A stretch of DNA of 64,000 nucleotides from Stratiformator vulcanicus (lineage in GTDB: Bacteria; Planctomycetota; Planctomycetia; Planctomycetales; Planctomycetaceae). The stretch is from NCBI RefSeq assembly GCF_007744515.1, contig NZ_CP036268.1:1250529-1314528 (forward strand), in the 5' to 3' direction. Position 1 is the stretch's first letter, and each line of letters starts with the position of its first letter. The notes beneath the pieces were generated by a model that was not told the DNA's origin, ran no database searches, and saw nothing but the letters and a program-made list of their open reading frames with translations. Positions 33,197-52,536 of the stretch are shown one piece after another. Made by a program: the position numbers and the translations under genes.

Positions 33197-34432
33197 GTGC
33201 GCACCGAAAAGGATGACGCTCGAACGTCCGGCTCCAAACATCTGGAGCGGGCGGCCGGAGCGCTCCATCATGATTTCTGCCCTTGGGCAAACCGTTGGAC
33301 TTATTGGCTCAAGCATCCGCTCGTCGGGCTGACCGCGGCGGCTGTCGCCAGCGCGTTTGTCGGACTATTCGTCAATCCGTTCTTGCTGCTTGTCGCGGCG
33401 GTGATTGCGGCGATGTCGGTCATCGGCTCGATCTGGCCGTGGCTGACGATCCGCGGGATCGACTGCGAAGTTCGCTTTGAGCGGAAACGCGTTCGAGAAG
33501 GCCGGCCGGTCGCGGCGGCGCTTCGCATCGAGAACCGCTGGCCCTGGCCGCTTTGGGGCATCGCCCTCAAAAAGGGCTTTGCGAGCGACGAATTTTCTCC
33601 GCCAGCCGCAGCACTCGGACGTGTGACGGCGTGGTCGAAGTCGGAGTTTGAATGGGAATTCGTACCACAGCATCGGGGCGTTTATCCGCTGGAGCCGCCG
33701 ACGATCGAGTCGGCTTTTCCCTTCGGCTTCTGGACCTGCCGGAAGACGATCGAGTGCGATCGACTGATTGTGTGGCCGACATCAAGCCCGCTATCCAACC
33801 TGCCCGACTCCGCGGCAGTCGATTCGCATGATGAGACGCTTTCGGATCGGCGGGCCGGGGACTTCGGCGACCTGCTCGGAACGCGACGATTTCGCGATGG
33901 CGACTCCCTCCGCCGAGTCCACTGGGCGCAAACGGCTCGGCACGGACATCTCATTTTTTGCGAGAGGCAGGCCGGAGCCGTGGCCGCGATCCGCGTCATC
34001 GCCGACCTGTCTCGCGATGCGTTCGCCGGGCGCGAAGGCGATCTCGAGGCGGCGATTCGAGTCGTCGCCAGTCTCTGCGAGTATTTGCCGCAACAACATG
34101 CCCTCGTGGAGTGTCGCCTCAATGGTGAGCTCATTCGGATCGGAAGCAACGCGTCGGGCTTGCGGGATATTCTCGACCGCCTCGCCGCCGTACCGCGTGA
34201 GGGATTTGACACGGTCGTCGCGGCGAAGAGTGAGAGCAACACCGAAGGTCTGCTGACGCTCCTGGTGACCGGAAATTCAGACAATTCGGCGAGTGGAACG
34301 TGCCGGGGCGCCCGCGTCATCGCTGTCGGCGACGAGCCGCCAGTGATCACTTCTCGTCGACCTTGGTTGCGGGTGTCTCCTGCCGACTTGAGCCGCCTGG
34401 GTGACATCTGGCGAAGGGCCTGTCATGCATAA
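33197..34432 (+). CDS. DUF58 domain protein
   Basis: A 411-residue membrane-anchored protein starting at GTG 33197 with GAGGA eight bases upstream. Two membrane spans lie near residues 42-82 (LTAAAVASAFVGLFVNPFLL and AAVIAAMSVIGSIWPWL). A beta-rich region follows, then the DUF58 signature around residues 220-260 (DFGDLLGTRRFRDGDSLRRV, HWAQTARHG), which begins a vWA-like fold. Its stop overlaps the start of the transglutaminase-like gene. DUF58, transglutaminase-like and MoxR genes form a well-known co-occurring trio thought to act as chaperone or assembly machinery for envelope or redox enzymes. Confidence 0.92.
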   Translation: MRTEKDDARTSGSKHLERAAGALHHDFCPWANRWTYWLKHPLVGLTAAAVASAFVGLFVNPFLLLVAAVIAAMSVIGSIWPWLTIRGIDCEVRFERKRVREGRPVAAALRIENRWPWPLWGIALKKGFASDEFSPPAAALGRVTAWSKSEFEWEFVPQHRGVYPLEPPTIESAFPFGFWTCRKTIECDRLIVWPTSSPLSNLPDSAAVDSHDETLSDRRAGDFGDLLGTRRFRDGDSLRRVHWAQTARHGHLIFCERQAGAVAAIRVIADLSRDAFAGREGDLEAAIRVVASLCEYLPQQHALVECRLNGELIRIGSNASGLRDILDRLAAVPREGFDTVVAAKSESNTEGLLTLLVTGNSDNSASGTCRGARVIAVGDEPPVITSRRPWLRVSPADLSRLGDIWRRACHA

Positions 34433-36911
34433 AAATACGGAAAAGCAGCGCGAGCGGTCCCTGATCGAGTCGACGTCGGTCCCCACGACGATCGGCCTTT
34501 CATTGTTGGCCTGCGGGATCCTGACGGTGGCTTCAGGCGAAGATCACCATCAATGGTGGACCTACGGTGAACTCGCTTTGCAGACGGCGATCACGATTGC
34601 CGCCGCGATTTGGGTCGGACGTAAGGCGTCCAAGTGGGAACGACCACCGGCGGTGGCTCCGATCCTGCTTCTGCTTGCGATCCTGACGATCGCCTGTGAG
34701 CCGATTCACCGGCTGTGCGGCGCAGGCCGCCCGGGTGAGATCGTGGTGATGGACGCCCTCAAGCACGTCGTGCTCGGCTTGGCCGCGGTGAGTCACTGGC
34801 TGGTGTTTCGTCGGATGGCGGCGTTTCTGAGTCTATTCTTAATGATGTTCGCGGTCTCCCTGACGGTCGACCCCCGCATTCAAATCATGGCGGGCATTTT
34901 CAGCGCGATCGCGATCTTCTGGGCGGCCGTGACCTATTGGGAAGGTCTGCAGGAACAGATCGTGGCGAAAACAGAGAGCCGGATGCCTCGCTGGTGGCTG
35001 GGCGGATTGGGAGCCTTCGTCGTGTTGCTGCTGGCGACGGTCTCCGTCGGCGGCGACCGTGCCTTGAACAGCCTGAAGGGCTTCTTTCCGAGCTCCGGCG
35101 GCGACGGATGGTACGACCCGGCCGCGCGAGACGGCGTTCGGGATGGTGACGCGGTCGTTGCGGGGACGAAGGACATTAAGAGTTTCGCGCCGATCGAAGA
35201 CGCGCCGTTCATGATCGACGATCGGCCGACGCTTTATGACGTGTTCGATGATTCTTACCAAGAGCCCTATCCGAATAAGAAACAGGATCGGGCCATCGGT
35301 CTGACCCAAGATTTCGAGATGAATCGGTGTCAGGAACGTCTGGCGGCATTAAAGAAGGCGGGCAAAGAGTTTTCGACATTCCGTAAGCCGCAAAGTCAGA
35401 AGGAGAACGATCGACTCTCTGATCGTGACGGCGGAGCCCTGTTCTACGTCGTCGGGCGAACGCCGCTGCATTTGCGGATGTGTGCTCACGACCTGTTCGA
35501 CGGCGAAGTGTGGGTGCATGAAGAAGGCAATGCCGGTCATTTTTCCATTGAAGTCGTTGATGGCAAACCGTGGGCCGTTCCCCCGTTGCCGCCGCCCAAT
35601 TTGGCGGTCTTCGGTGGAGTCGAAGGGCACACGCTTAAGATCATCGATCTCGATTCCGCAGTGATTCCGGCGCCCGGAAACCTGCGCGGCGTCCACATTG
35701 ATCAGGTCAATCGGGGCGATTTCTTTGAAATCGTTCACGCCGACATTCCCGCGATGGATCGAGAGGTGCTGCCACCGCTAACGACGATTAACATCGTGAG
35801 CGAACTGATCGACAGTTCTAAAGTCGTCGGGCAGTGGAATCGGTCCACCAGTGCGGGTCCTTCCTATCAACAATGGCCCGATCATCCGGACTGGGATCGG
35901 ATTAAGAAGCTCGCCGGCGAATGTGCCGGAGACGCCGCGTTCGGTGTCGAACAGGTCAAAGCGGTGACGGACTTCTTCAAAGCCAACTATCGCTTTGAGC
36001 GGGGCGTCGGGACCGATAAGAATTTCGCCGACCCGGTGCATGACCACAACGACCATTCGCATGCCGGTCACGAACATGCCCATCACGACCATGATCATCA
36101 GGGACATCAACACACGGACGAACCGCTGCCGGTGAGTTGCTTCCTGTTCGAAACAAAAGTTGGCGACGACTACCACTTCGCCACGGCGACGGCCTTAATG
36201 CTGCGGTCGCTCGGGTATTCCACGCGGCTGGTGCAGGGCTTTTATGCCGATCCGGCCGACTATGATCCGAAAGCGCGGAATACGCCAATCCGCACGGATG
36301 ACGTCCACACGTGGGTCGAGGTCTATCTCGGCACCGGCATCTGGATGACCGTTGAGCCGACCCCCGGCTACGAAATACTCGGTCCGCCGCCGACGCTGTT
36401 TGATCATGCTAAAGAGGCGGCGGTGACGGCTGCGATTTTTGTCGGATCGCACCCGTGGCCGTTCGCGTCCGGTTTGATCGTGCTGATATTGCTCTGGGTT
36501 TACCGTTTGGACCTGGTCGACGCCGCCGATAGTGCCGCGTTTCGGCTTCGATTCCGACACAACGACCGGCAACGACTGCTTGCCGCTGCAAATCTTTTGG
36601 AGCGTCGAGCGGTTCGTGCCGGCCTGACAAGGCCGCCGGGCATGACACTCCGCATGTGGTTAAGAAGCATTTTTGAAGCCGAGACCCGCGAACAGGCCGA
36701 TCGGCTCACGGCATTTTTAATCGCAAGAGATCGAGCAGCTTTCGGGTCGATTAATGACGCTCGCCTTCCGTTGGGCGAGTTGAATTCACTGCTCGGGGAG
36801 ATGTCTCTGAGCCAACTCAGACGAACGCGTCGGCATCGGTCCCGGAACGCAACCGAAAAGATGGACGTCAATAACCTAATGGAATTAAGCGGCGGTTTGC
36901 GGCCTGCGTGA
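34425..36911 (+). CDS. TgpA-like transglutaminase-domain membrane protein, catalytic Cys absent, His-rich insert
   Basis: An 828-residue protein starting at ATG 34425, overlapping the DUF58 stop by eight bases. About five N-terminal membrane spans (residues 20-215) are followed by a large extracytoplasmic region, and a C-terminal span (about 685-700) precedes a cytoplasmic DUF4129-like tail. The transglutaminase core is recognisable (FLFETKVGDDYHFATATALM, YSTRLVQGFYADP, DVHTWVEVY, MTVEPTPGYE). The position of the nucleophile Cys in GxCxxFA is Asp here, and the usual DPTP Asp is Glu, while His is kept. The protein is therefore probably not a classical transglutaminase. At about 539-566 there is a stretch with 12 His in 27 residues, suggesting metal binding. 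Partner genes are DUF58 and MoxR. Confidence 0.9.
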   Translation: MHKNTEKQRERSLIESTSVPTTIGLSLLACGILTVASGEDHHQWWTYGELALQTAITIAAAIWVGRKASKWERPPAVAPILLLLAILTIACEPIHRLCGAGRPGEIVVMDALKHVVLGLAAVSHWLVFRRMAAFLSLFLMMFAVSLTVDPRIQIMAGIFSAIAIFWAAVTYWEGLQEQIVAKTESRMPRWWLGGLGAFVVLLLATVSVGGDRALNSLKGFFPSSGGDGWYDPAARDGVRDGDAVVAGTKDIKSFAPIEDAPFMIDDRPTLYDVFDDSYQEPYPNKKQDRAIGLTQDFEMNRCQERLAALKKAGKEFSTFRKPQSQKENDRLSDRDGGALFYVVGRTPLHLRMCAHDLFDGEVWVHEEGNAGHFSIEVVDGKPWAVPPLPPPNLAVFGGVEGHTLKIIDLDSAVIPAPGNLRGVHIDQVNRGDFFEIVHADIPAMDREVLPPLTTINIVSELIDSSKVVGQWNRSTSAGPSYQQWPDHPDWDRIKKLAGECAGDAAFGVEQVKAVTDFFKANYRFERGVGTDKNFADPVHDHNDHSHAGHEHAHHDHDHQGHQHTDEPLPVSCFLFETKVGDDYHFATATALMLRSLGYSTRLVQGFYADPADYDPKARNTPIRTDDVHTWVEVYLGTGIWMTVEPTPGYEILGPPPTLFDHAKEAAVTAAIFVGSHPWPFASGLIVLILLWVYRLDLVDAADSAAFRLRFRHNDRQRLLAAANLLERRAVRAGLTRPPGMTLRMWLRSIFEAETREQADRLTAFLIARDRAAFGSINDARLPLGELNSLLGEMSLSQLRRTRRHRSRNATEKMDVNNLMELSGGLRPA

Positions 36912-36965: not shown

Positions 36966-37937
36966 ATGACTTCAACCGCAGTCGCGGAGCCCGTTCAACA
37001 CGCGACACATGAATCCGATTTCGCCAAGCTCGACGAGCTGCGACGGCGGCTCAACGAGACCCTTCGCGGTAAAGCGGAGGTCGTCGAAAACGTCCTCGTC
37101 TGCCTGCTCGCTCGCGGGCACCTGTTACTCGAGGACAAGCCCGGTCTTGGCAAGACGACGCTCGCGAAGGCACTCGCCGACGGGGTCGGGGGCCAATTCG
37201 CCCGCGTGCAATGTACTCCCGATCTGCTCCCCAGTGACGTGACCGGTTTTAATATCTTCAATCAAAAATCACATGAGTTTGAATTCCGTGAAGGGCCGGT
37301 CTTCGCCGACGTGCTGCTGGCCGATGAAATTAATCGGGCAACGCCACGAACGCAGTCGGCTCTACTCGAAGCGATGGCCGAACGACAGGTCACCTATGAC
37401 GGCATCCGCTATTCGCTGTCGCCGCAGTTCTTCGTGATTGCGACACAAAACCCGATCGACCAGCACGGCACGTATCCTCTGCCGGAGGCGCAGCTCGACC
37501 GCTTCGCGATGAAGCTCTCGATCGGCTACCCCGACCGCAGCCATGAACTTCACATGCTCGGCGCGGCGATCGGTGATGTTAGCAAGGCGGATGAGCAGGG
37601 GCTCGCCCCTGTCTTCAGCGAACAGGAATTGGCCCAGATGCAGCGCGAGGTGGCCGCAGTAACGGTCGCCGAATCGGTCCGCGACTATATCGTCCGCCTG
37701 GGCGAAGCGACGCGTTCCCACCGGCTGATCGAATTGGGGCTCAGTCCCCGGGGCCTACTCACTTTGCAGCGGGCGGCACAAGCGAAGGCGTTTCTCGACC
37801 ATCGCGAATTCGTGACGCCTGACGATATCCAAGAAGTGGCCCGGCCGGTCTTGTCGGTCCGATTGGGAGTAGAGGGGGACGAGCCGACATCGATTATTAA
37901 AGAAATTCTCGAGAAGGTCTCCGTCCCCACCGAGTAG
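36966..37937 (+). CDS. MoxR-family AAA+ ATPase
   Basis: A 323-residue cytoplasmic ATPase with ATG preceded by GGAGG. Walker A is EDKPGLGKTT (the usual GxPGxGKT has Lys at the third position here: D-K-P-G), Walker B is LLADEINRATPRTQSALLEAM, and sensor 1 is FFVIATQNPIDQHGTYPLPEAQLDRF, given here only in part as IATQNPI. The C-terminal lid domain follows (SPRGLLTLQRAAQAKAFL, VTPDDIQEVARPVL). MoxR ATPases work with vWA/DUF58 proteins as assembly factors. It is third in the DUF58, transglutaminase-like and MoxR unit, 54 bp after the second gene. Confidence 0.95.
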   Translation: MTSTAVAEPVQHATHESDFAKLDELRRRLNETLRGKAEVVENVLVCLLARGHLLLEDKPGLGKTTLAKALADGVGGQFARVQCTPDLLPSDVTGFNIFNQKSHEFEFREGPVFADVLLADEINRATPRTQSALLEAMAERQVTYDGIRYSLSPQFFVIATQNPIDQHGTYPLPEAQLDRFAMKLSIGYPDRSHELHMLGAAIGDVSKADEQGLAPVFSEQELAQMQREVAAVTVAESVRDYIVRLGEATRSHRLIELGLSPRGLLTLQRAAQAKAFLDHREFVTPDDIQEVARPVLSVRLGVEGDEPTSIIKEILEKVSVPTE

Positions 37938-37959: not shown

Positions 37960-38463
37960 TTAAATCTCTGCCGAGTTGACCGCCGACTGATGAAACTGCC
38001 TTCGCGAAACTGATTGCCAGCCGACTTGAGTCAAACCGACCGCCATCATAACGAGGCCTGCTAAGAAGAACTGCACAATCGGGAAGTCGACCAGGGTCCA
38101 CAATTCGTGCCGCGCGAATGCCCAGGCATACTGCGGACTATCGAGTTCCCGTGCGAGCCAGAGTGACCGACGCTGCAGGAGGAAAGCGATGGTCAGGGCG
38201 GCGCTGGCGACCGAAATAGCAAAACCGGCACTTGCCAATCGCCGAGGGGGTAACATTAAACTAAGGACAGCAACCGGCCCCGCGAAGAAAACCAGCCAGA
38301 AGGCGTGAAAGGAAAGTAGTGCTTCGACCGGCGGTCCGCAGCCCCAAGGTCCGCAATAGTTTCGGTCGGTCAGGCCGACAAACAGGGACTGCTGCAACAC
38401 GAAGATCATGCTAGCCCCCCAGGCAGCGAGTCCCGTCATCCAGATTGCGATGCGATAAATCAT
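37960..38463 (-). CDS. Small four-span membrane protein, unknown
   Basis: A 167-residue protein with four hydrophobic segments: IAIWMTGLAAWGASMIFVL, FHAFWLVFFAGPVAVLSLML, AGFAISVASAALTIAFLL and IVQFFLAGLVMMAVGLTQV. The first loop carries two cysteines (YCGPWGCGPP). I do not recognise a family. It is convergent with moxR, 22 bp from its stop, and divergent from the permease operon. The long, hydrophobically coherent frame supports a real gene although no good ribosome-binding site precedes the ATG. Confidence 0.7.
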   Translation of the reverse strand: MIYRIAIWMTGLAAWGASMIFVLQQSLFVGLTDRNYCGPWGCGPPVEALLSFHAFWLVFFAGPVAVLSLMLPPRRLASAGFAISVASAALTIAFLLQRRSLWLARELDSPQYAWAFARHELWTLVDFPIVQFFLAGLVMMAVGLTQVGWQSVSRRQFHQSAVNSAEI

Positions 38464-38689: not shown

Positions 38690-40237
38690 TTGACTCTTGA
38701 TTTGCCCACTATCGAAATGTTCGTCGTGACCCTGGTCGTCGGGGCTGCGCGAACGATTGTGGAAGGCTCGGCGACGATCCTCGCGGGGATCGTGACCGCG
38801 GCCTATCTGCGCACGCTCGCAACTCCAGAGAAGGTAGCCGTCATCTTCCGCGGTGAGGGGCCGCAGGGACTGCTGCGGGCGACGCTCGTGGGTATGGCGC
38901 TGCCGGTCTGTGCCATCGGGGTCCTGCCGGTGCTGCGCGAGTTGCGTCGGCTGGGGCTACCGACTTCGAAGCTGCTCACATTCGGACTCGCCGCGCCGCT
39001 ACTGAATCCGATCACGCTGGTCTATGGGCTCAGTGTCCTCTCCTTCTCGAACTTCCTGCTGGTGGTGGCAGCGACCGTGGTCGTTTCAATCACGGTTTGC
39101 GACGTCTCCTCCCGATTCGCCGTTGATCCCCAGCCGACTTCGGAGCCACTGCCCCGGGGACTGACGGGAGGAACACGATTATGGAACCTGTTCATCGCGT
39201 CCGGTCGAATCGCGACCGGGTGGACCGCGACCGACTTCGCCATTGTCGTTCTGGTCTCGGCGGTGACGGCCTCATTCCTGCCGCCGGGGTTGTTTGAAGA
39301 GTTGTGCTCTCGTTCCAATCGGCTCGGACCGATCGAGGCGACGGCACTGGCGTTGCCTCAATACGTCAGTCCGGCGACCGGGGTGATGCAGCTCTCTTCG
39401 CTGTCGAAAGTCAATCTTTCGATCCCCACGGGACTCGCCGTCTATGTCTTCGGCGTCGGCTTCAGCGCGGGAACCATCGTCTGGCTCGTGAAATGGTTCG
39501 GACCGCGTCGGGTTACGGCGCTCGGGTTGGCGACGATCTTAGTCGCGGTCGCGGCTTCCTACGGTTCGCAGAGCCTCCTCCCGGTCCCCGTGGCACAGGA
39601 GGAAGAGACGCACGGGCTCGACGCGCTGACCCGCCCCCATCATGCCAGTTTCGGCAGCCTCGGCCACGCCGTTTCCTATGGTCTCTCTTACACCGATCCG
39701 ATGATGCGGGGCGGTGCGGTGTTGCTCGCATTGCTACTCACGTCCGGAGTCGTCTTTCGATTGCTGAAGGTCCGCTTCCGCGACGATGACCCGGAGAAGG
39801 TCGCCACCGACACAGATAGCCGAATGAGCCGCGCAGTCCCCGCGTCTCAAATCGGGGCCGTCGCCGTCTGTGGGATGGCCCTCTTCGTGTGTCTGGTCAG
39901 TTACATCTATTTCCCCGGCCCGAAGGAATCGATGGAAGAGATGAGGACGCTGCAGGCCGACGCGATCGTCGCAATAAGGACGGGGAAGACGGGCTGGGCG
40001 CTGGAGCAACTTGCGGCTTGGGATCAGACGGCGGCGAAGCTCCCGGTCGGAGCGGCTATCCGTTTTTCCTTTCCGACGGCGGAACAGAGATCCGCGACCC
40101 GGGCCCTGCGAACCCAGCTCTTATGGATGCAAGATCGCGTCCGCGACGGCGACATGATCGCCGCGACTCAACAATCGGGTGACTTGATGAATCTCCAACT
40201 TGCTGCCCAGCGCGCCTACCTGCGAGAGCGACCGTGA
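38690..40237 (+). CDS. Permease resembling ArsP_1/DUF318 family
   Basis: A 515-residue polytopic protein starting at TTG 38690, with AGGGG seven bases upstream and no better start nearby. About nine membrane spans are visible. The block LPVCAIGVLPVLRELRRLGL followed by FGLAAPLLNPITLVYG matches the position of the PxCSCGxxP...APxLNP signature of ArsP_1/DUF318 permeases, several of which export metals or organoarsenicals. Here the second Cys of CSC is lost (VCAIG). The C-terminal 110 residues are a soluble tail after a span (VAVCGMALFVCLVSYIYF), with a helical region that is not recognised. It overlaps the next gene by four bases (GTGA), so they are translationally coupled. Substrate unknown; metal is an inference from the ATPase in the operon. 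Confidence 0.8.
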   Translation: MTLDLPTIEMFVVTLVVGAARTIVEGSATILAGIVTAAYLRTLATPEKVAVIFRGEGPQGLLRATLVGMALPVCAIGVLPVLRELRRLGLPTSKLLTFGLAAPLLNPITLVYGLSVLSFSNFLLVVAATVVVSITVCDVSSRFAVDPQPTSEPLPRGLTGGTRLWNLFIASGRIATGWTATDFAIVVLVSAVTASFLPPGLFEELCSRSNRLGPIEATALALPQYVSPATGVMQLSSLSKVNLSIPTGLAVYVFGVGFSAGTIVWLVKWFGPRRVTALGLATILVAVAASYGSQSLLPVPVAQEEETHGLDALTRPHHASFGSLGHAVSYGLSYTDPMMRGGAVLLALLLTSGVVFRLLKVRFRDDDPEKVATDTDSRMSRAVPASQIGAVAVCGMALFVCLVSYIYFPGPKESMEEMRTLQADAIVAIRTGKTGWALEQLAAWDQTAAKLPVGAAIRFSFPTAEQRSATRALRTQLLWMQDRVRDGDMIAATQQSGDLMNLQLAAQRAYLRERP

Positions 40238-42039
40238 GCGATACCCCGGACCGATCGCCCGACACGAAATCCAGCTCAGGGTCGGCCGAGCCGATGCTGC
40301 GAAGCGCGTTGTGGTGCGTCGGGATCGCCGCCGTCACTGCGTTCGCCTATGCCTTTCAGATCGAGTCGGGATTGTTCCGCGCCGCAGGCTTGGAGTTATG
40401 TCTTTGCGCCACGGCGATTTGGGCGGCGCTCGATGCCGCAAAGTCCCGCCGTCGGCTCGATGCGGACGACTCAGCCAACGCGCTGGCCAAGAAGCGGGAA
40501 ACGAGTGCGGTTCATCATTTGTTCGTCGCCGCACCGACTGTGGCAGTGCTGGTGTTCTCAGTCCTTTCTCTCCTGTCGCAACTGGTCGAGATCCCGCGCG
40601 CCCAGTCCCAACAGCAGGTGATCGGCGGCGCGATCGCCGCGGTACTGGCAGCCAGTCTCTGGACGGTCTTTGCCCGGTCCCTGCGGCAGGCGGAGCGAAA
40701 TGTATTTCCTGAACTTTTTGCCGTCCGCGATGCCTTGTCGGAGGCCCGGCTGGCGGCCCTCGTATCGGGCGGCGCGTTGCTCATTGCCACCGTTTATCGC
40801 CCCGCCGAGAGCTGGGCGGCATGGGCGATCAGCATTTGGACGCTTGCGGTGGGAACCGAGCAATTGCTTCGAGTTCTCGCCGGCTGGTTCCGCCCGATCA
40901 CCCGCGACGAGCCGCTCGTCGCACCGGTCCACTCGCTGCTTCGGGAGGTGTTCCTCTCAACGACGAATCCCGTCGGAGCGTTGTTCGACATCGCCGAATC
41001 GCGGTTCGGTTTAAGCCTGCGGTCGTCTTGGACGATCCGCTTCTTCCGCCGGTCGATCCTGCCGATCTCAATCGGTTGTGTGCTGATCGTCTGGCTGGCG
41101 ACCTGTTTCGTGGTCATCGAGCCGCACCAGGCCGGGCTGCGGGAACGCTTCGGTGTCGCCGAACGGACCAAGCTCGAACCGGGACTGCACACAAAGCTGC
41201 CGTGGCCGTTCGGGACGATCCGCCGCTATCCGGCGGGTGTGGTCCAGACGATGCAGGTCGGCTTCGAGGAAGCGATCGACGAAAGCCTCGTCTCGCTCGA
41301 CCAGGAACGCTTACTCCTATGGACGAAACCGCACGCGCAGGAATTTTCATTAGTCCTCGGCTCGGAGACCGAACTGGTCGCCATCAACGCGATCATTTAT
41401 TTCCAAATTGCCGAGGATGTTGAGGGATTCCTCAAGCACGCATTTGCGACTTCGAATCCGCAGTCGGCACTGGAGGCGTTCGCCTATCGCGTCTTAATGG
41501 AGGAGACACGTTCGGCGACGCTCGACGAAATTTTATCGCGTGGGCGGGACGACTTTGCCGAAACGATTCGCCGGCGTTTGAGTGAGTATTCCGCCGCGAA
41601 TGACCTCGGGCTTGAGATCGTGGATGTCGCGCTCATTAACCTGCACCCTCCTGTGCAGGTGGCGACGAATTATCTCGACGTCGTCAATGCCGAACTCGAC
41701 AGCTCACGCGTTGTGACGACCGCCAAAGGAGAAGCTTCGAAGCAGGTACTCGACGCCGAGACAGAAAGCGGTTTGCGCGTGGCGACGGCGAAGGTCGACG
41801 CAGCCAAACGTGTCTCTGAGGCAGGGCGGGAGTCGGCCGAGTTTCTCGCAGTCGGCGAAGCCTACGCCGCCGCTCCGGAAACGTATCGGCTGAGGCTCTG
41901 GTTCGAAGCGTTCGAACGTGTGCTCTTCGGTCGTCGGCTGTTCGTGATCGATGCAGCATTACCCAACGTGATCTTTGACGAACGGGCCGACGGGGCGAAC
42001 ACTTCACTTCCGAATGCGGCGATCTCGACGACACCTTAA
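40234..42039 (+). CDS. SPFH (HflK-like) membrane protein with polytopic N-terminus
   Basis: A 601-residue protein starting with GTG inside the permease stop. The N-terminal 300 residues hold about six hydrophobic spans, which ordinary HflK lacks (it has one). After the last span (LPISIGCVLIVWLATCFVV) comes an SPFH/band-7 domain at about 300-480 (IEPHQAGLRERFGV, LEPGLHTKLPWPFGTI, RYPAGVVQTMQVGF, LVAINAIIYFQIAEDVEGF, EETRSATLDEILSRGR). A coiled-coil region follows (DAETESGLRVATAKVDAAKR, interrupted). SPFH proteins form large ring or cage assemblies that organise membrane protein partners such as the FtsH protease. No ftsH is nearby; the partner here is more likely the transport proteins of the operon. 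Confidence 0.88.
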   Translation: MSDTPDRSPDTKSSSGSAEPMLRSALWCVGIAAVTAFAYAFQIESGLFRAAGLELCLCATAIWAALDAAKSRRRLDADDSANALAKKRETSAVHHLFVAAPTVAVLVFSVLSLLSQLVEIPRAQSQQQVIGGAIAAVLAASLWTVFARSLRQAERNVFPELFAVRDALSEARLAALVSGGALLIATVYRPAESWAAWAISIWTLAVGTEQLLRVLAGWFRPITRDEPLVAPVHSLLREVFLSTTNPVGALFDIAESRFGLSLRSSWTIRFFRRSILPISIGCVLIVWLATCFVVIEPHQAGLRERFGVAERTKLEPGLHTKLPWPFGTIRRYPAGVVQTMQVGFEEAIDESLVSLDQERLLLWTKPHAQEFSLVLGSETELVAINAIIYFQIAEDVEGFLKHAFATSNPQSALEAFAYRVLMEETRSATLDEILSRGRDDFAETIRRRLSEYSAANDLGLEIVDVALINLHPPVQVATNYLDVVNAELDSSRVVTTAKGEASKQVLDAETESGLRVATAKVDAAKRVSEAGRESAEFLAVGEAYAAAPETYRLRLWFEAFERVLFGRRLFVIDAALPNVIFDERADGANTSLPNAAISTTP

Positions 42040-42074
42040 ATTTATTCTTTATCACAAACGACTCGGTCGAATTA

Positions 42075-43076
42075 ATGGCAAAGCAATCTGACAAAAAGCG
42101 GGCGACGCTGGCGGGTACGCTTTCGCGTTGGCTGATTGCGACGACGCTGGTCGCGCTCCTGGTGGGCTACGCCTGTTACCTTCAGGTACCCGAAGGCCGG
42201 GCCGCCGTCGTGACACGCTTTGGTCAGCCGGTGCGCGAACTCGTTGAACCGGGGCCTTATTTCAAACTGCCTTGGCCGGTGGAAGATGCCCGGCTGATCG
42301 ACATGCGAAAGCGTGTGTTTAATACCCCGTATACCGCAACCTTAACGCGCGACCGCCGCAATGTTGTGCTGCTGACCTATGTCGTTTGGCGTGTTGCCGA
42401 ACCCGAGCTATTTCTGCAATCGGTGGGTGATGAGAAGGCCGCAGCGGCCAAACTCGACGGCATGGTCACCGCCGCAAAAAACACCTTAATGGGTCGCTAT
42501 GATCTCTCAGCCCTTGTATCGACCGATCCGAGCAACATTAAGACGTCGGAAATTGAGGCGGGGATCGAGTCAGACGTCCAATCGGTCGCGGCTGAGAAAT
42601 TCGGCATCGCCGTCGAACAGGTCGGTTTTAAGCGAATCGCCTATGAAGACGCCAACGTCACGGCGGTGCTGGCGCAAATGCGGGCCGAGCGAGAGGCCGA
42701 GGCCAAACAGCTTCGCGCGTTCGGTGATAAAGAAGCTCGGCGGATCCGTGATGACGCGGCGGTGACGAGTGAGGAAATCCTTCGCGATGGTCGTCTCACT
42801 GCGGGCAAGATTCGCGGCGAAGCCGAGCGCAAAGCGGCCGAAATTTATGCCAAAGCACATCAAACCGATCCCGACTTCTATCGCTATTGGCGCTCGCTCG
42901 AAGCACTGAAGCGGACGCTCAGCCGCGACGCAACCGTGGTCCTGCGAACCGATCAAGGCTTCTTCGATCTGCTGACCGATCCGCCCGAGGCACCGCGTCC
43001 GGTACCGACACCTTCCGGCGGACGCACGCTTGCGAACGAGCGCGACGGCCGCCTTAACGGAGGCGGCGATGAGTGA
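42075..43076 (+). CDS. SPFH (HflC-like) membrane protein
   Basis: A 333-residue protein with one N-terminal membrane span (LIATTLVALLVGYACYLQV) followed by an HflC-like SPFH domain (VPEGRAAVVTRFGQPV, LVEPGPYFKLPWPVEDARLI, LTYVVWRVAEPELFLQSVGD) and a charged coiled coil (AQMRAEREAEAKQLRAFGD, EARRIRDDAA). The closing FYRYWRSLEALKRTLSRDAT and VVLRTDQGFF blocks are as in HflC. It lies 35 bp after the previous SPFH gene and its stop overlaps the next start by eight bases. HflC normally pairs with one HflK; here it sits between two HflK-like proteins. Confidence 0.93.
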   Translation: MAKQSDKKRATLAGTLSRWLIATTLVALLVGYACYLQVPEGRAAVVTRFGQPVRELVEPGPYFKLPWPVEDARLIDMRKRVFNTPYTATLTRDRRNVVLLTYVVWRVAEPELFLQSVGDEKAAAAKLDGMVTAAKNTLMGRYDLSALVSTDPSNIKTSEIEAGIESDVQSVAAEKFGIAVEQVGFKRIAYEDANVTAVLAQMRAEREAEAKQLRAFGDKEARRIRDDAAVTSEEILRDGRLTAGKIRGEAERKAAEIYAKAHQTDPDFYRYWRSLEALKRTLSRDATVVLRTDQGFFDLLTDPPEAPRPVPTPSGGRTLANERDGRLNGGGDE

Positions 43077-44193
43077 CACATTCCACCCGGAAGAGCAACC
43101 GCCGAGCGATGGCGAATTCGTTCCGCCCCCCGTGCCGCCCAAGCAGCGGACGACCGAACGCTTCTCCATGATCGAGGGCGCGGCGTCCGGCCTGCGGATG
43201 GTCAGTTGGCTCGCCGTCGGTCTGTTCGTCCTGTTTTGGTGCTCGGGCATAACGACGATTCAGCCGGGTGAAGTCGGGCTGCTGTTGCGCTGCGGGAAGC
43301 TCGTCGGAGCGACGCCGTCCGAGCAGATTCGCCAACCGGGCCTCCTGCTCGCGTTGCCTTACCCGATCGACGAAGTCATTCGTGTCCCCGTCAAACAGGA
43401 GCGGGAGATTTCGGTCGCCGCGTTACGGTCGCGACGGATCGATCTCGATGGCGTTAAAACCGGCGTGGGGCTTAACGGCTATGCCCTCTCTGGCGACCAG
43501 AACATTCTGCAGGCCGACCTGACTTTGAAGTATCGCATCCGCGACCCGATCGCCTATCGGCTTGGCAACGACGACCCGGAGCGCATCCTACGCGACATTG
43601 CGACGGGGGCGGCGGCCGAGACGATCGCTGCATGGAACGTCGACGACGCTCTCCGGCTTCAACGGGAATCGGACGTCGGTCCGCAGAAGCTCGCCTTCGT
43701 CGTACGTGACTCCGCTCAGCAACTGGCCGATACCACCCGGCTGGGGGTCGAGATCACCGCTGTGGAGTTTCGTGAGATTCAGCCACCCGAGGCCGTCGCG
43801 GATGCCTTCCAGTCGGTGCAAAGCGAACGGATCGCCATCGAAACGAAGAAACGGGAATCCGAGGGCTTCGCCGCCCGCACCGTTCCCGCCGCGGAGGCGG
43901 AGAGCAACTCGATGATTCAGGAAGCCAACCGGCTCGCGACCGACCTGCGAACGCGAGCCGAGGAAGAGGTCGAGTTGTTCGACCGCCTGCACGACGAATA
44001 CCGGCGGAATCCCGAATTGGTTTGGAACCGCCTGCATCTCGAAACGATTGAAGGCCTGATGCGTGACGGCAGCCAATTCCGGTTCGTCGACCCGGGAACG
44101 CGGCTGATCCTCACACCAAGAGGGCACCGCCACACGCAGGAGACCGCTTCACCACCCGATAAGACGACACCGGCCGCCGGAGGTGAATTATGA
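43069..44193 (+). CDS. SPFH (HflK-like) membrane protein
   Basis: A 374-residue protein starting at ATG 43069 with GGAGG five bases upstream; the coding frame from 43030 is only an extension through the previous gene. A proline-rich cytoplasmic N-terminus (FHPEEQPPSDGEFVPPPVPP) is followed by a membrane span (VSWLAVGLFVLFWCSGITT), the SPFH domain (IQPGEVGLLLRCGKLVG, GLLLALPYPIDEVIRVPV, ADLTLKYRIRDPIAYRLG) and a coiled coil (ERIAIETKKRESEGFAART). It overlaps the ATPase start by four bases (ATGA). Its gene order, directly before a P-type ATPase, suggests physical association with the pump. Confidence 0.92.
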   Translation: MSDTFHPEEQPPSDGEFVPPPVPPKQRTTERFSMIEGAASGLRMVSWLAVGLFVLFWCSGITTIQPGEVGLLLRCGKLVGATPSEQIRQPGLLLALPYPIDEVIRVPVKQEREISVAALRSRRIDLDGVKTGVGLNGYALSGDQNILQADLTLKYRIRDPIAYRLGNDDPERILRDIATGAAAETIAAWNVDDALRLQRESDVGPQKLAFVVRDSAQQLADTTRLGVEITAVEFREIQPPEAVADAFQSVQSERIAIETKKRESEGFAARTVPAAEAESNSMIQEANRLATDLRTRAEEEVELFDRLHDEYRRNPELVWNRLHLETIEGLMRDGSQFRFVDPGTRLILTPRGHRHTQETASPPDKTTPAAGGEL

Positions 44194-46115
44194 GCAGCAT
44201 GACCGCGCCGGTTGCCGATCGGATTCAACGCGACCTTGATGCCGGGATGACGGTTGGGGAGCGTCTGCGTCTGGGCCTGCGTATTGGGACGGCGTTGGCC
44301 GCGGGGGTGCTGCTGATTGCCGCCTACGCGATCGGATGGGCCTTTCCCGCAGAGCAGGGCCCCATCGCTGAGAGTTTGAAGGCACTGGCCGCGATTCTCG
44401 TTTTGCTTCCGATCCTGCGGGAAGCGGCTCGCGGCGTGTTGACCGGTGCGACCGATGCCTACAGTTCCCAACTCGTCGCGATCGCGTCGCTCGCCGCCCT
44501 CGCCGTAGGTGATTTTGCCACGGCTGCGCTGATTCCGATCATCCTTAGCGTGGCGTTTTTTCTCGAAGAACGCAGTGTGCTCGGAGCGCAGGCGGCGATT
44601 GAAGGTCTTAAGTCGCTGCAGGCCAGAAAGGCCCGACGCCTTGATTCCCGCGGCCTCGAACACGAGGTCGAGACCGATGTCCTGCTCCCCGGCGATACGG
44701 TCGTCGTCCGCCCCGGCGAGACGATTCCGGCTGACGGCACGGTGGCGAGGGGGCATTCCGCAATCGATCAATCGACGATCACGGGTGAGTCGACGCCGGA
44801 GGATGTGGCCCCCGGCTCGACAGTCTTCGCCGGAACAATTAATCATAACGGGCTGCTGCACATCACGGTGGCGACCGCGGGTGGCTCGTCGACGTTGGGA
44901 AAGGTACTGGAACTCTTAAAAGATGCCGAGCAGTCCAAGACGGCGATGCTGCGATTAATTGAGCAATATGCGAAGTACTTTGTGCTCGGTGTGCTGTTGA
45001 TCGCCGGAATTACGCTTTTCCTCAGCCGCGACCTGTCTCGGGCGATCGCCGTGCTCGTGGTCGGTTGCCCGGGACCGTTTATTCTTGCCGGCCCCGCCGC
45101 GATGGTCGCAGCACTCGCTTCGGCTTCACGAAAAGGAATATTAATTAAGAATGCGAAGTTCCTTGAAGCGTTGACGGAAGTTGACTCGGTGATCTTCGAC
45201 AAAACCGGAACCGTCACACTCGGCCAATTGGAAGTCGCGTCACTGATGCCTCATGAGGGCACGGATGAGGAACTGCTGCGGGCGGCGACCGTTTGTGCCG
45301 AGGCATCGCAGCACCCGGTCTCGCGAGCGATCATTAATTATGCGAATCAGTTGGAACGATCGGACCACCTCGAATCGACATCGGCAGAAGAACTCGCGGG
45401 TCGGGGCGTTATCGCGAAAACGGATCAGGGACGTTTCGTATTGGGCCGTCGCGTTTGGGTTGAACAATCGGGCTTTGATCTGCCCGTCGAACCCGACCAC
45501 GCCGGGCCGATCGTGTGGGTCGCAGTGGAGACCGCAAAAGAGAAACGTTGCCTCGGCTGCGTACTCTTGGCTGATCATGCGCGGACCGATGCGAAAGAGG
45601 TCATCGAGGATCTGCACCGAATCGGCATCGAACGGGCAACCTTATTAACCGGGGACCGTCGACAGGTTGCTGACCAAATCGCATCGGAACTTGGCGTCGA
45701 CAATGTCGTGTCGGAAGTGTTGCCGGGACATAAACTCGATGTGGTTCGAGCCGAACGTGAGGCGGGCTATCGCGTGATGGTCGTCGGCGACGGCGTCAAC
45801 GATGCCCCGGCGCTGGCGGGCGGAGACGTCGGCATCGCCATGGGAGCCGCCGGGGCGGAAATCGCGCTTCGCAGCGCCGACGTGGTCTTAATGACCGAGC
45901 GCCTCGATCGACTACCATTCGCAGTCGGGCTTGCCAGACGCACCCGAACGACCATTCATCGCAATGTGATCGTGGGAGCGGGCCTGACGATCGTGATGCT
46001 CGGCCTCGCCTCGGCGGGCTATATTTCCCCGATCGCCGGCGCCGTCCTGCAAAACGTCGGCGAGCTCTATGTGATTATTAATAGCGCTGCCCTTCTAAAA
46101 GATCGTGCCGGCTGA
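44190..46115 (+). CDS. P1B-type (metal-transport-like) P-type ATPase with CPG motif
   Basis: A 641-residue ATP-driven cation pump. Motifs in order: actuator TGES at 198-201; membrane motif GCPGPF with Cys293, where P1B pumps carry CPC, SPC or TPC; phosphorylation motif DKTGT with Asp337; SQHPVSRA (the P1B-specific HP) near 375; TGDR near 490; and hinge GDGVNDAPAL near 533. There is no N-terminal heavy-metal-associated (GMTCxxC) domain, and only about six to eight spans are visible, so the N-terminus is short. The CPG form makes metal choice uncertain (zinc, cobalt, copper or other). ATG overlaps the SPFH stop, so it ends a tightly coupled five-gene operon. Confidence 0.93.
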   Translation: MSSMTAPVADRIQRDLDAGMTVGERLRLGLRIGTALAAGVLLIAAYAIGWAFPAEQGPIAESLKALAAILVLLPILREAARGVLTGATDAYSSQLVAIASLAALAVGDFATAALIPIILSVAFFLEERSVLGAQAAIEGLKSLQARKARRLDSRGLEHEVETDVLLPGDTVVVRPGETIPADGTVARGHSAIDQSTITGESTPEDVAPGSTVFAGTINHNGLLHITVATAGGSSTLGKVLELLKDAEQSKTAMLRLIEQYAKYFVLGVLLIAGITLFLSRDLSRAIAVLVVGCPGPFILAGPAAMVAALASASRKGILIKNAKFLEALTEVDSVIFDKTGTVTLGQLEVASLMPHEGTDEELLRAATVCAEASQHPVSRAIINYANQLERSDHLESTSAEELAGRGVIAKTDQGRFVLGRRVWVEQSGFDLPVEPDHAGPIVWVAVETAKEKRCLGCVLLADHARTDAKEVIEDLHRIGIERATLLTGDRRQVADQIASELGVDNVVSEVLPGHKLDVVRAEREAGYRVMVVGDGVNDAPALAGGDVGIAMGAAGAEIALRSADVVLMTERLDRLPFAVGLARRTRTTIHRNVIVGAGLTIVMLGLASAGYISPIAGAVLQNVGELYVIINSAALLKDRAG

Positions 46116-46817: not shown

Positions 46818-48938
46818 TCATTCCACCCCATCATCGGTCAACAAATCAACTCTCTTTTCATCGTTCACCAGCTGTTCGATATCACGGGAAATGATATCAA
46901 GGCCGATTTCCTCCTCTGAGGGAAGCGAGGTGATATTGAGCTCTGACAGGAATTGTAGAAAGTCAAGGTCATCTCCGATCGCGTTTAAATCTGCGTCATT
47001 AATAAAGTATGGCAGAACTTTGACCTTTTTCTGACGTGCGAGCGAGACAGCAATTTTCGTCTCAAGATGAACATAGTCTTTATCGCTCACAATTCGATCG
47101 GGCTTCTCCATACTTTGCTTGCCTCGCCAATCATGAGAGAGCAGCATTACGACCACATTAGATGTTGCAATCGATTGTTCGATCTTCTCTCGGATATCTT
47201 CACCGGTGGATATTTCCGCAGAATCAAGAAAGGCTCCTTCGGACGGGAATTTGTCTCTAAGATGACGGTAAAGCCGTTCAGCAAACCTTTTCGCATCAGT
47301 TCTTCTGTAGGAAATAAACGCTTGATACTTTCTCGGTTGCCAAAGAGCGGCAGCAGATGCATGCACGCTCCATTTATTTAATGTGTCTTCGTCAACGTAG
47401 CACGCGGAGACTTCGAGTTCGCTATCGATATATGGGAGCTCTTCAGGGCTTATTCGACCACCGGAGAATGTTCTCTTGAAAGTATCTGATGCGAAATGCT
47501 CTAGCGGAAAGCTTCTAGAAAGGACTCTGAAATCAGCAACTGTGAAAGCCATCATCTCACCGTTGAGGCCGCGGTAAGATGAGTGAAAGGAATTCATGTA
47601 GTAGAAAAAGTCATTCTGCGAAAAAACCGTCTCATTATTGCTCACCCTCTCAAGAATCTCTTCGTATGACTCTTGATTCGGCACCCCAACTATTCGGCAG
47701 TCGGCCCAAACTCCAGGGCCTTTGTCCTTTCTTGACGGTCCTCCATCCCCGTGGTACAGCAGGACACGTGGCTCATCATCAGAGAAACCATGCTCCCACC
47801 ACGATCTACCTATCCCGCTCGCAACCGGGAAGATGAGTTCTTTCCCATTCTGCTGTGCGTGGTAGAGCCGAGATGCCGACGTTGAATGTAGCTCGAACAA
47901 CAAGCCGGAAATGTCCTCGATAGGAATAGCATCTCGCCTCACCGTAGTGTCGGGCCCCGTGTTCAATTCTAGCCAAACCCGATTGAATACCCTTGCCGTA
48001 CTCGAAGATGTGCGAATGCGATCAAACGTATCGCTCCTTGGTACATATGGCGTTAAGAATAGCTTGAGATCAAAGCCTTCGAAGATATCGTAATCGCTAT
48101 TAGTTAATTCGTGTTCGATGATGGAAGCATTCGGAAAATACTTCCGGCAAATCACCCACCGTGCCTTGAGTGGTTCGACTTTGGCAGGCGACTGCCAATC
48201 TGCGGGGCGAATTTCAAAGTCTAGAGCGGTTAAGGCATCCGTCCCAAGACAATCCAATGGAATTTCGGAAGATCGCAAGCTGAAGTCCGGCAACCCACGC
48301 ATTTTAAAGTAATGCTTTGCTATCCACCTCGTGATTGACTCCATATCGTGAGGGTCGCCACGATAAGATTCTATTAATGTTTTTCGCAAACGATAAATGA
48401 CATCTCCCCGAACATAAACGTCCGGGCGGGTACCAACGACCGAGAATCCATGGGAGACGTAAAATTCAATCTCGCTGTTCTCAGTCGAGGGAATCTCGAC
48501 AATTAATTCCCGAAATCCACGCAGAATTGCAAACGCCTCGCATTTCTCCAGAAGTTGGGTCATCCCTGCAACTTTCGCCGAGGAATACGGCAGCGTCGAT
48601 TGCGCTACACCTTTCCCCGCAGCCGACTTGTTACCTTTCTCTTGCTCAAGCTCCTTAACGATCAGATTTTTTACGACAACCGCGTCTGTCTCGGAGAGTG
48701 ATGGCTGCGTCAAGATCACGCAGCCAATAATCTCTTCGGACGTGTGATCGCCGACCCATACCGGTCGAAACAGCCCGTATGCAATCCGACCCTTGCCTTT
48801 TGCGATATCATTGAGAGCGCGGTCAAGCCATACCGAGTGGCGTGGAAAGCAACTCGCAAGGTAGCTCGCCTCAGCCTGCAGATCTCTAATGACTGGGACC
48901 TGATTAGGCCGAAGGCGCCGGACACGAAAACCACTCAC
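46818..48938 (-). CDS. GNAT acetyltransferase-TIR domain fusion protein
   Basis: A 706-residue protein starting at GTG 48938 (AAGG just upstream). Residues 1-190 look like a GNAT domain: HSVWLDRALNDIAKG, EEIIGCVILTQPSL, VVKNLIVKEL, GFRELIVEIP and EIEFYVSHGFSVVGTRPDVY, the last being the typical GNAT end strand. Residues 190-535 are an unrecognised middle region (GLLFELHSTSASRLYHAQQN, GIGRSWWEHGF). Residues 538-690 are a TIR domain: YQAFISYRRTDAKRFAERLY, GAFLDSAEISTGEDIREKIE, SNVVVMLLSHDW, and DYVHLETKIAVSLA with Glu626 at the NADase catalytic position. No signal peptide is present. It follows a 113-residue gene by 14 bp. The architecture and more AT-rich, rare-codon style suggest an acquired immunity-type effector. 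Confidence 0.85.
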   Translation of the reverse strand: MSGFRVRRLRPNQVPVIRDLQAEASYLASCFPRHSVWLDRALNDIAKGKGRIAYGLFRPVWVGDHTSEEIIGCVILTQPSLSETDAVVVKNLIVKELEQEKGNKSAAGKGVAQSTLPYSSAKVAGMTQLLEKCEAFAILRGFRELIVEIPSTENSEIEFYVSHGFSVVGTRPDVYVRGDVIYRLRKTLIESYRGDPHDMESITRWIAKHYFKMRGLPDFSLRSSEIPLDCLGTDALTALDFEIRPADWQSPAKVEPLKARWVICRKYFPNASIIEHELTNSDYDIFEGFDLKLFLTPYVPRSDTFDRIRTSSSTARVFNRVWLELNTGPDTTVRRDAIPIEDISGLLFELHSTSASRLYHAQQNGKELIFPVASGIGRSWWEHGFSDDEPRVLLYHGDGGPSRKDKGPGVWADCRIVGVPNQESYEEILERVSNNETVFSQNDFFYYMNSFHSSYRGLNGEMMAFTVADFRVLSRSFPLEHFASDTFKRTFSGGRISPEELPYIDSELEVSACYVDEDTLNKWSVHASAAALWQPRKYQAFISYRRTDAKRFAERLYRHLRDKFPSEGAFLDSAEISTGEDIREKIEQSIATSNVVVMLLSHDWRGKQSMEKPDRIVSDKDYVHLETKIAVSLARQKKVKVLPYFINDADLNAIGDDLDFLQFLSELNITSLPSEEEIGLDIISRDIEQLVNDEKRVDLLTDDGVE

Positions 48939-51796: not shown

Positions 51797-52189
51797 TCAG
51801 CGAATTCTCAACGAGAAGTAGGGGACGTTGATGTTGAGGCGGCTGCCGCCGTATCCGCCATAGCGTCCGTAGTAGCCACCCCGATAGCCGTGGTAGCCGC
51901 CGTAGTACGGGCTGGGTGCGTAATAGCGAGGTTGGCCGTAGTAGTACTGTCGCGGCACGACGCGCGGTGCGTACGGCTGGTAGAAGCTGCGTCCGCGGAA
52001 GCCGCGGATGCCATCGTCGTCATCGTAATCGAAGTTGCGCCGAAAGCCGTCATCGTCGTCGTAATCAAAATTGCGACGGAAGCCATCGTCGTCATCATAG
52101 TCGAAACGTTGCGCCGAAGCCGTGTTCGACGACGCGGTCATCGCGAACGCGGTGCAGAGCGTTGCGACGGCGATACCTGCGGACCTCAT
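51797..52189 (-). CDS. Short secreted protein with acidic DYDDDDG repeats and Tyr/Gly tail
   Basis: A 130-residue exported protein. ATG at 52189 is preferred over 52201 because GGAGA lies about six bases before it. The signal peptide is MRSAGIAVATLCTAFAMTASS and on to ASA. The mature part has three near-identical 11-residue repeats RNFDYDDDDGF, then a Tyr/Gly/Arg/Pro-rich stretch (YYYGQPRYYAPSPYYGGYHG) and a C-terminal NINVPYFSLRIR. The acidic repeats could bind divalent cations such as calcium; the Tyr/Gly tail resembles cell-surface adhesive or structural proteins. No family assignment is possible. It is terminated by the hairpin at 51739-51767. Confidence 0.78.
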   Translation of the reverse strand: MRSAGIAVATLCTAFAMTASSNTASAQRFDYDDDDGFRRNFDYDDDDGFRRNFDYDDDDGIRGFRGRSFYQPYAPRVVPRQYYYGQPRYYAPSPYYGGYHGYRGGYYGRYGGYGGSRLNINVPYFSLRIR

Positions 52190-52536
52190 ATCGTTCTCCA
52201 TTCATCCTGGATGAAATCTTGTCCCCCGGTTCATTGTTGCGACCGGCGGGCCGATTGTCACACCGAAGCGGGGCTGACGCCGACGAATTGATCGTAAGTG
52301 TCTACTGGTAAGCGGCTTGCAAAAATCTTCGATTTTCGGGGAGGGTTTAGCTTCATTTTGGACTGTCCGGTATCGGTTCGCACTGATTGATCAACGTGCA
52401 GGAGCATGAAGTTAGCCCCTCATAGATACCGGACTTGGTTGCGTGGTGTGGCGTTTTGGGTTGGACTATCAACAATGCATCGTCAACAACGCCGATCTCC
52501 ATTTCTGCCCATCTTCCGCAAGTTTCGAGACCACAG
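52190..52536. promoter_or_regulatory. Divergent intergenic region with 10-bp inverted repeat
   Basis: The region separates two divergent secreted-protein genes. It contains GTCCGGTATC at 52365-52374 and its exact reverse complement GATACCGGAC at 52425-52434, 50 bp apart. This may be a looping operator or a long-range RNA stem. No gene is supported here. Confidence 0.4.

Follow-up and report, generated by a model that had tools for sequence, protein, structure and literature searches.

The role of bacterial SPFH domes outside the handling of FtsH is still in question. At a locus of the planctomycete Stratiformator vulcanicus, the genome itself names a partner: it lies in the operon, and numerous genomes encode it in one polypeptide with the SPFH domain. 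We analysed a 64,000-nucleotide window of contig NZ_CP036268.1 (positions 1,250,529 to 1,314,528), in which consecutive genes encode an ArsP-like permease, three SPFH proteins (SPFH1, SPFH2 and SPFH3) and a P1B-type ATPase. What might three SPFH proteins do between two transporters? Metal transporters were repeatedly linked or fused to SPFH proteins in Planctomycetota and some proteobacteria; the observations reported here are on gene order and protein domains, on fusions and predicted folds, and on trees and the absence of linkage to FtsH. We consider it likely, with a probability of about 0.62, that the SPFH proteins build a dome in the periplasm, similar to that of HflK/C, in which a K-type subunit bears a domain of transporter fold, and that this dome houses or anchors the P1B pump, most likely for zinc or copper uptake.

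Operon layout

The genome is one contig of 5.23 Mb. The features of the operon are as follows.

38690..40237, plus strand: ArsP_1/UPF0718-type permease, 515 amino acids (Pfam ArsP_1; same place in all six closest relatives)
40234..42039, plus strand: SPFH1, HflK-type in the tree, 601 amino acids, with a six-span N-terminal domain, a further span, an SPFH domain and a coiled coil (Band_7, model, tree)
40273..40902, plus strand: predicted domain of cation diffusion facilitator (CDF; YiiP/ZnT) fold in SPFH1 (residues 14-223), which has lost the canonical metal site (VIA-align, residue check)
42075..43076, plus strand: SPFH2, HflC-type, 333 amino acids (TIGR01932 hflC, PDB HflC 7vhp, tree)
43069..44193, plus strand: SPFH3, HflK-type, 374 amino acids, without a transporter domain (TIGR01933 hflK below cut-off, PDB HflK 7vhp, tree)
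44190..46115, plus strand: P1B-type ATPase, 641 amino acids (Pfam, NCBIfam, tree of SPFH-linked ATPases)
45066..45074, plus strand: membrane motif CPG of the ATPase, replacing CPC (alignment, motif table)

A preliminary description of this DNA had claimed that the five genes are joined by 4-base or 8-base overlaps, with a single 35-bp gap, and the open reading frame coordinates agree: the permease and SPFH1 genes overlap by 4 bases, SPFH1 and SPFH2 are 35 bases apart, SPFH2 and SPFH3 overlap by 8 bases, and SPFH3 and the ATPase gene by 4. A GGAGG ribosome-binding site lies ahead of both ATG 43069 and ATG 44190, each time inside the preceding gene, so coupling at these last two junctions is likely. 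The alternative SPFH3 start TTG 43030 was dropped for ATG 43069, the one with a ribosome-binding site.

Profile searches backed the gene identities given in that description. The permease scored 52.7 bits against Pfam ArsP_1 (cut-off 32.3; E 4.6e-14) and stayed far under the cut-offs of NCBIfam SaoE and SO_0444. Pfam Band_7 was matched by SPFH1 (58.7 bits, residues 294-501), SPFH2 (84.2 bits) and SPFH3 (72.8 bits). The ATPase reached 145.9 bits against Pfam E1-E2_ATPase and 507.6 bits against the NCBIfam heavy-metal ATPase model TIGR01525 (cut-off 346.25).

Conservation and transporter fusions

The arrangement is conserved. Homologous genes lying mostly apart in related genomes would have spoken against the preliminary description, but all five occurred in the same order in each of the six closest relatives (G105, G036, G057, G049, G022 and G039, from several families of the class), and the ATPase gene adjoined a full-length SPFH1 relative in 14 of 16 genomes across the phylum. 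For a census, 294 Planctomycetota genomes were drawn evenly, their SPFH2 relatives with a score of 112 bits or more were collected, and 67 neighbourhoods were read, the window included; as loci were chosen by likeness to the window's SPFH2, the percentages describe that type and not all SPFH genes. The SPFH triad was paired with a transporter, linked or fused, at 62 of the 67 loci. A separate P1B gene was present at 47, always on the same strand as the SPFH genes; a further 12 loci had ArsP-SPFH, two CDF-SPFH and one P1B-SPFH fusions. Of the five without a transporter, two were on contigs of ~6 kb or less.

By chance, ~0.01 P1B genes would be expected per 16 kb (16 genomes of ~6 Mb each together held 53 that passed the cut-off). 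This expectation, set against 47 of 67 loci and the order kept in six relatives, indicates that the operon is not a chance arrangement. No transporter was found at three canonical HflK/HflC control loci. The unit of five genes described initially does recur in order in relatives, but it is only one subtype: the core consists of SPFH1-2-3 and the ATPase, and an ArsP-type gene as a separate operon member is limited to the window's branch. A wider conserved block of ABC-2 permease, SPFH1-2-3, P1B ATPase and ABC ATPase genes was also observed in many Planctomycetota beyond the window's class (L113-L149, for example L117 4060-12476).

Fusions were found at the first SPFH position. A search with SPFH1 yielded P1B-SPFH fusions of ~1040-1170 residues from the family and class to which the window belongs, in which a complete P1B ATPase is followed by an SPFH domain (Pfam); behind most of them come two SPFH genes, first an HflC-type and then an HflK-type one. 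ArsP_1-SPFH fusions (ArsP_1 E 1e-42 to 5e-49) and Cation_efflux-SPFH fusions (Cation_efflux E 4e-25 to 4e-33) have an HflC-type gene next downstream and usually an HflK-type gene too. A conjugative plasmid of the alphaproteobacterium Aquibium oceanicum carries a CDF-SPFH gene that is likewise followed by these two types of gene, with a gene for a heavy-metal ATPase farther along. Many genes annotated as 'protease modulator HflK' are transporter fusions of this kind, and the annotation should be read with caution. P1B-SPFH fusions without both partner SPFH genes adjoining were seen at L049, L050, L051 and L055.

The fusion of three unrelated transporter families at one SPFH position is the strongest evidence for joint action of SPFH proteins and transporters. 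These P1B, ArsP and CDF fusions give firmer support than the operon alone to the earlier proposal that SPFH cages organise metal transporters. As a functional linkage this proposal is well supported, and a physical complex is plausible.

SPFH types and the relation to FtsH

In a tree with HflK and HflC, second-position proteins grouped with HflC, and first- and third-position proteins with HflK, with 100 support each (quick method, SH-aLRT support only). SPFH2 exceeded the TIGR01932 hflC cut-off (140.2 against 134.4 bits), while SPFH1 (91.1 bits) and SPFH3 (135.8 bits) stayed below the TIGR01933 hflK cut-off of 159.4. At locus L109 (7177-9471, minus strand), a 764-amino-acid protein has a canonical-looking HflK domain after ~450 residues without a Pfam match.

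The SPFH proteins could instead be FtsH modulators that govern the turnover of metal transporters and do not enclose them. The HflC score of SPFH2 fits this explanation, and the HflK/HflC proteins of the hmtA cluster of Pseudomonas aeruginosa have been read as FtsH interactors (PMC11761036). We nevertheless regard it as improbable. No FtsH gene was detected at 60 bits or more at any of 95 loci, so the pairing with FtsH in place of the pump that the preliminary description had allowed for was not seen by gene linkage. Its statement that no protease lies nearby also stands: the genome has two FtsH genes (2.95 and 4.92 Mb), each more than 1.6 Mb distant and neither adjoining any Band_7 gene. E. 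coli hflKC is likewise not adjacent to ftsH, so non-linkage alone weighs little. However, the genome encodes a separate canonical HflK/HflC-like pair at ~3.35 Mb, besides three other Band_7 genes; the SPFH domain itself is found fused to transporters; and SPFH1 and SPFH3 both fall short of the HflK cut-off.

The six-span domain of SPFH1

The AlphaFold2 model of SPFH1 (mean predicted local distance difference test score 78) consists of six spans, a seventh span, the SPFH domain and a long helix. The six extra spans initially noticed in one SPFH protein correspond to model helices 19-43, 46-76, 83-118, 126-152, 161-184 and 190-219. This domain matched no Pfam family, and Cation_efflux was absent among 18 SPFH1 proteins at E 1. 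Foldseek with the SPFH1 model returned HflK/C and other SPFH proteins first, followed by human ZnT3 and ZnT1. Residues 14-223 aligned with YiiP (8f6k_B; VIA-align) with Z 18.8 and a root-mean-square deviation of 2.8 over 196 residues. The model of a protein from a divergent branch (L092) aligned with YiiP with Z 18.2 and a deviation of 3.1 over 205 residues; the first 32 rows of its fold matches were all CDF structures, and unrelated structures appeared from Z 7.9.

The CDF site A residues DxxxD and HxxxD were missing in all 31 six-span proteins aligned. The CDF-SPFH fusion L111 retains them, and L118 almost does. A glutamate of the sixth transmembrane helix (E209 in the window) is common to the six-span proteins and the CDF-SPFH fusions, and a profile alignment of the two groups was colinear but weak (65.5 percent). 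Since a CDF fold is predicted in two branches and the metal-site residues are gone, we take the six-span domain most readily for a CDF domain whose site for transport has been lost. The idea of a degenerate ArsP domain hidden in SPFH1 was dropped, as the fold matches CDF.

The P1B ATPase and the direction of transport

The catalytic motifs of the ATPase are intact: DKTGT, GE of TGES, H375 and GDGxND were invariant across 29 aligned ATPases. No metal-binding domain was found at its N-terminus. In the membrane, the window and its nearest relatives have CPG, which is not a motif of the CPC/CPH/SPC/TPC type; other relatives have CPC, CPI, CPV, CPS, CPT or TPC at this site. Separate SPFH-linked ATPases, proteobacterial ones included, formed one clade in the tree (100 support) and SPFH-fused ATPases a second one (97); neither clade falls with the CopA or ZntA groups.

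The window's order SPFH1-2-3-ATPase is also found on plasmids of Paraburkholderia, Rhizobium, Klebsiella and Burkholderia, and the Paraburkholderia copy is near zinc ABC transporter genes. In the homologous hmtA cluster of P. aeruginosa, PaFlo5-7 should correspond to PA2437-2439 by strain numbering. PA2439 is the first gene of the hmtA locus, and Zur binds the promoter (PMC8531726). In a znuA mutant, PA2434, PA2435, PA2437, PA2438 and PA2439 were upregulated 5.6- to 14.4-fold, and PA2437-2439 were annotated as HflC/HflK-type (PMC4542158). The proteins of the cluster also increased under zinc depletion (PMC11761036). HmtA imports zinc and copper according to PMC8456098, which cites Lewinson 2009. 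The PaFlo5-6-7 SPFH genes have themselves been studied, in a paper that makes no mention of an ATPase or transporter (PMC13086221).

The view that the arrangement has no described function is not entirely correct. SPFH domes and the hmtA cluster, a zinc-starvation locus with a zinc/copper importer, were already known. In the literature searched, however, we found no description of SPFH triads with transporters as a class, or of their exchangeable transporter fusions; the words ATPase, transporter and permease are absent from a 2009 survey of SPFH operons.

Because of the homology to the hmtA cluster, uptake of zinc or copper is the likeliest job, and export is the main rival. The same dome working in the opposite direction, as a metal-efflux or detoxification assembly, is possible but rather doubtful. 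Most known P1B, CDF and ArsP-type proteins are exporters, the A. oceanicum triad is accompanied on its plasmid by a two-component system as well as the heavy-metal ATPase, and the operon ATPase is the only TIGR01525 ATPase of the S. vulcanicus genome. Uptake is favoured by the placement of separate SPFH-linked ATPases outside the CopA and ZntA clades, by the plasmid copy near zinc-uptake genes, and by the sole studied cluster, which is induced by zinc starvation and whose pump imports.

A proposed transporter-bearing dome

The E. coli HflK/HflC complex is a ring of alternating C-type and K-type subunits. By homology, SPFH1, SPFH2 and SPFH3 would assemble into a similar ring or dome over the periplasmic face of the inner membrane, with two kinds of K subunit: SPFH1, bearing the CDF-fold membrane domain, and SPFH3, lacking it. 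The plain HflK-type SPFH3 may dilute the bulky SPFH1 and so leave room in the ring for the membrane domains; this would account for three SPFH genes rather than two. The P1B pump, together with the ArsP-like permease in the window's branch, would lie within the patch of membrane that the dome encloses, or against it, and metal would be handed over or retained within the closed periplasmic chamber. In other lineages, the pump itself (P1B, ArsP or intact CDF) is carried by the first SPFH protein as a fusion. The job here would probably be zinc or copper uptake, as reported for HmtA. The dome, the physical complex, its stoichiometry, cargo and direction are what we infer. Human stomatin domes enclose AQP1 and UT-B (PMC12407830), indicating that an SPFH dome is able to house transporters.

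Several points weigh against this proposal. Gene neighbourhoods and fusions are evidence of functional linkage, not of a dome, and for S. vulcanicus the dome is read from sequence and models. With its metal site lost, the CDF-fold domain may be a mere scaffold. The cargo of the ATPase is unsure because its motif is CPG and not CPC. Although the window ATPase shares a clade with proteobacterial SPFH-linked ATPases, HmtA is placed with them provisionally, from the gene order given in papers. With a provisional Zur motif, no site ahead of the operon or of the proteobacterial copies scored above shuffled sequence. Deletion of paFlo5-6-7 in P. aeruginosa PA14 gave weak phenotypes, and the available part of that paper does not mention a zinc assay (PMC13086221).

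If true, the transporter-bearing dome would be a bacterial, genetically tractable counterpart to transporter-enclosing stomatin domes, would give a reason for the third SPFH gene, and would make the P. aeruginosa hmtA cluster one complex, not a pump with odd neighbours. It may be one case of a general class of metal-transport SPFH domes, in which an HflC-type protein alternates with two HflK-type proteins, one carrying an exchangeable transporter cassette, which may be a P1B ATPase, an ArsP permease or a CDF protein, live or dead; a closed chamber in the periplasm would then surround metals as they cross the inner membrane. For this wider proposal we see the chances as evenly balanced.

Upstream neighbourhood and other window genes

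Three conserved neighbours lie upstream of the permease gene.

33197..34432, plus strand: 411-amino-acid protein without a Pfam match (recurs in relatives), presumably DUF58-like
34401..36911, plus strand: transglutaminase-like membrane protein (Transglut_core E 1.4e-14)
36966..37937, plus strand: MoxR-type AAA+ ATPase (AAA_3 E 4.4e-62; in L039, L040, L041 and L043)

In four relatives (G036, G057, G049 and G039), the unit reaches upstream to this cluster: ahead of the permease gene lie those for a MoxR-type ATPase, a transglutaminase-like protein and a protein related to the 411-amino-acid one; the MoxR gene and the permease gene are almost gapless in the last three. The window retains the three genes, with a reverse-strand frame intervening before the permease (37960-38463, minus strand; a 167-amino-acid membrane-protein frame without a Pfam match). 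A class-wide MoxR link was dropped, as it was detected in the window's branch only. G036 has two tandem ArsP-type permease genes ahead of SPFH1 (L039 4991-6631 and 6720-8327).

The MoxR and transglutaminase genes ahead of the permease in four relatives, and the ABC genes beside many other triads, would fit a different explanation, in which the SPFH proteins just mark a microdomain for the insertion and maturation of unrelated transporters and the MoxR cluster is the main machine. This is very unlikely in our view, as the cluster was detected in the window's branch only, and the transporter link at 62 of 67 loci of the census.

Two other window genes were recorded. The first (46818-48938, minus strand) encodes a 706-amino-acid protein that ends in a TIR domain and whose N-terminal part weakly resembles GNAT; PADLOC models with TIR domains match it weakly. 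The second (51797-52201, minus strand) encodes a small predicted secreted protein with tandem RRNFDYDDDDGF copies and a glycine/tyrosine-rich tail.

Comparison with known systems

Among the closest known systems is the hmtA cluster PA2434-PA2439 (PaFlo5-6-7 and HmtA), which likewise has three SPFH genes, an HflK-type gene first, and a P1B ATPase. It differs in that no ArsP-type gene or MoxR cluster is reported there, and its promoter is bound by Zur. As in E. coli HflK/HflC-FtsH, HflC-type (SPFH2) and HflK-type (SPFH1 and SPFH3) proteins occur together, with matches in sequence or fold to 7vhp, 7vhq and 9cz2; here, however, there are three proteins instead of two, one has a predicted CDF-fold domain, and linkage or fusion to transporters replaces FtsH.

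The six-span domain of SPFH1 resembles the CDF zinc transporters YiiP and ZnT in predicted fold but lacks DxxxD and HxxxD and is fused to an SPFH domain. The operon ATPase shares its core domains and catalytic motifs with ZntA and CopA; unlike them, it belongs to its own clade, has CPG, has no metal-binding N-terminal domain that we could find, and is SPFH-linked. An SPFH dome around transport proteins, as seen with stomatin (PMC12407830), is the principle proposed here. Stomatin is a homo-oligomer with unlinked guests, whereas in the present case the operon itself supplies the transporters, or the putative dome protein carries them as fusions.

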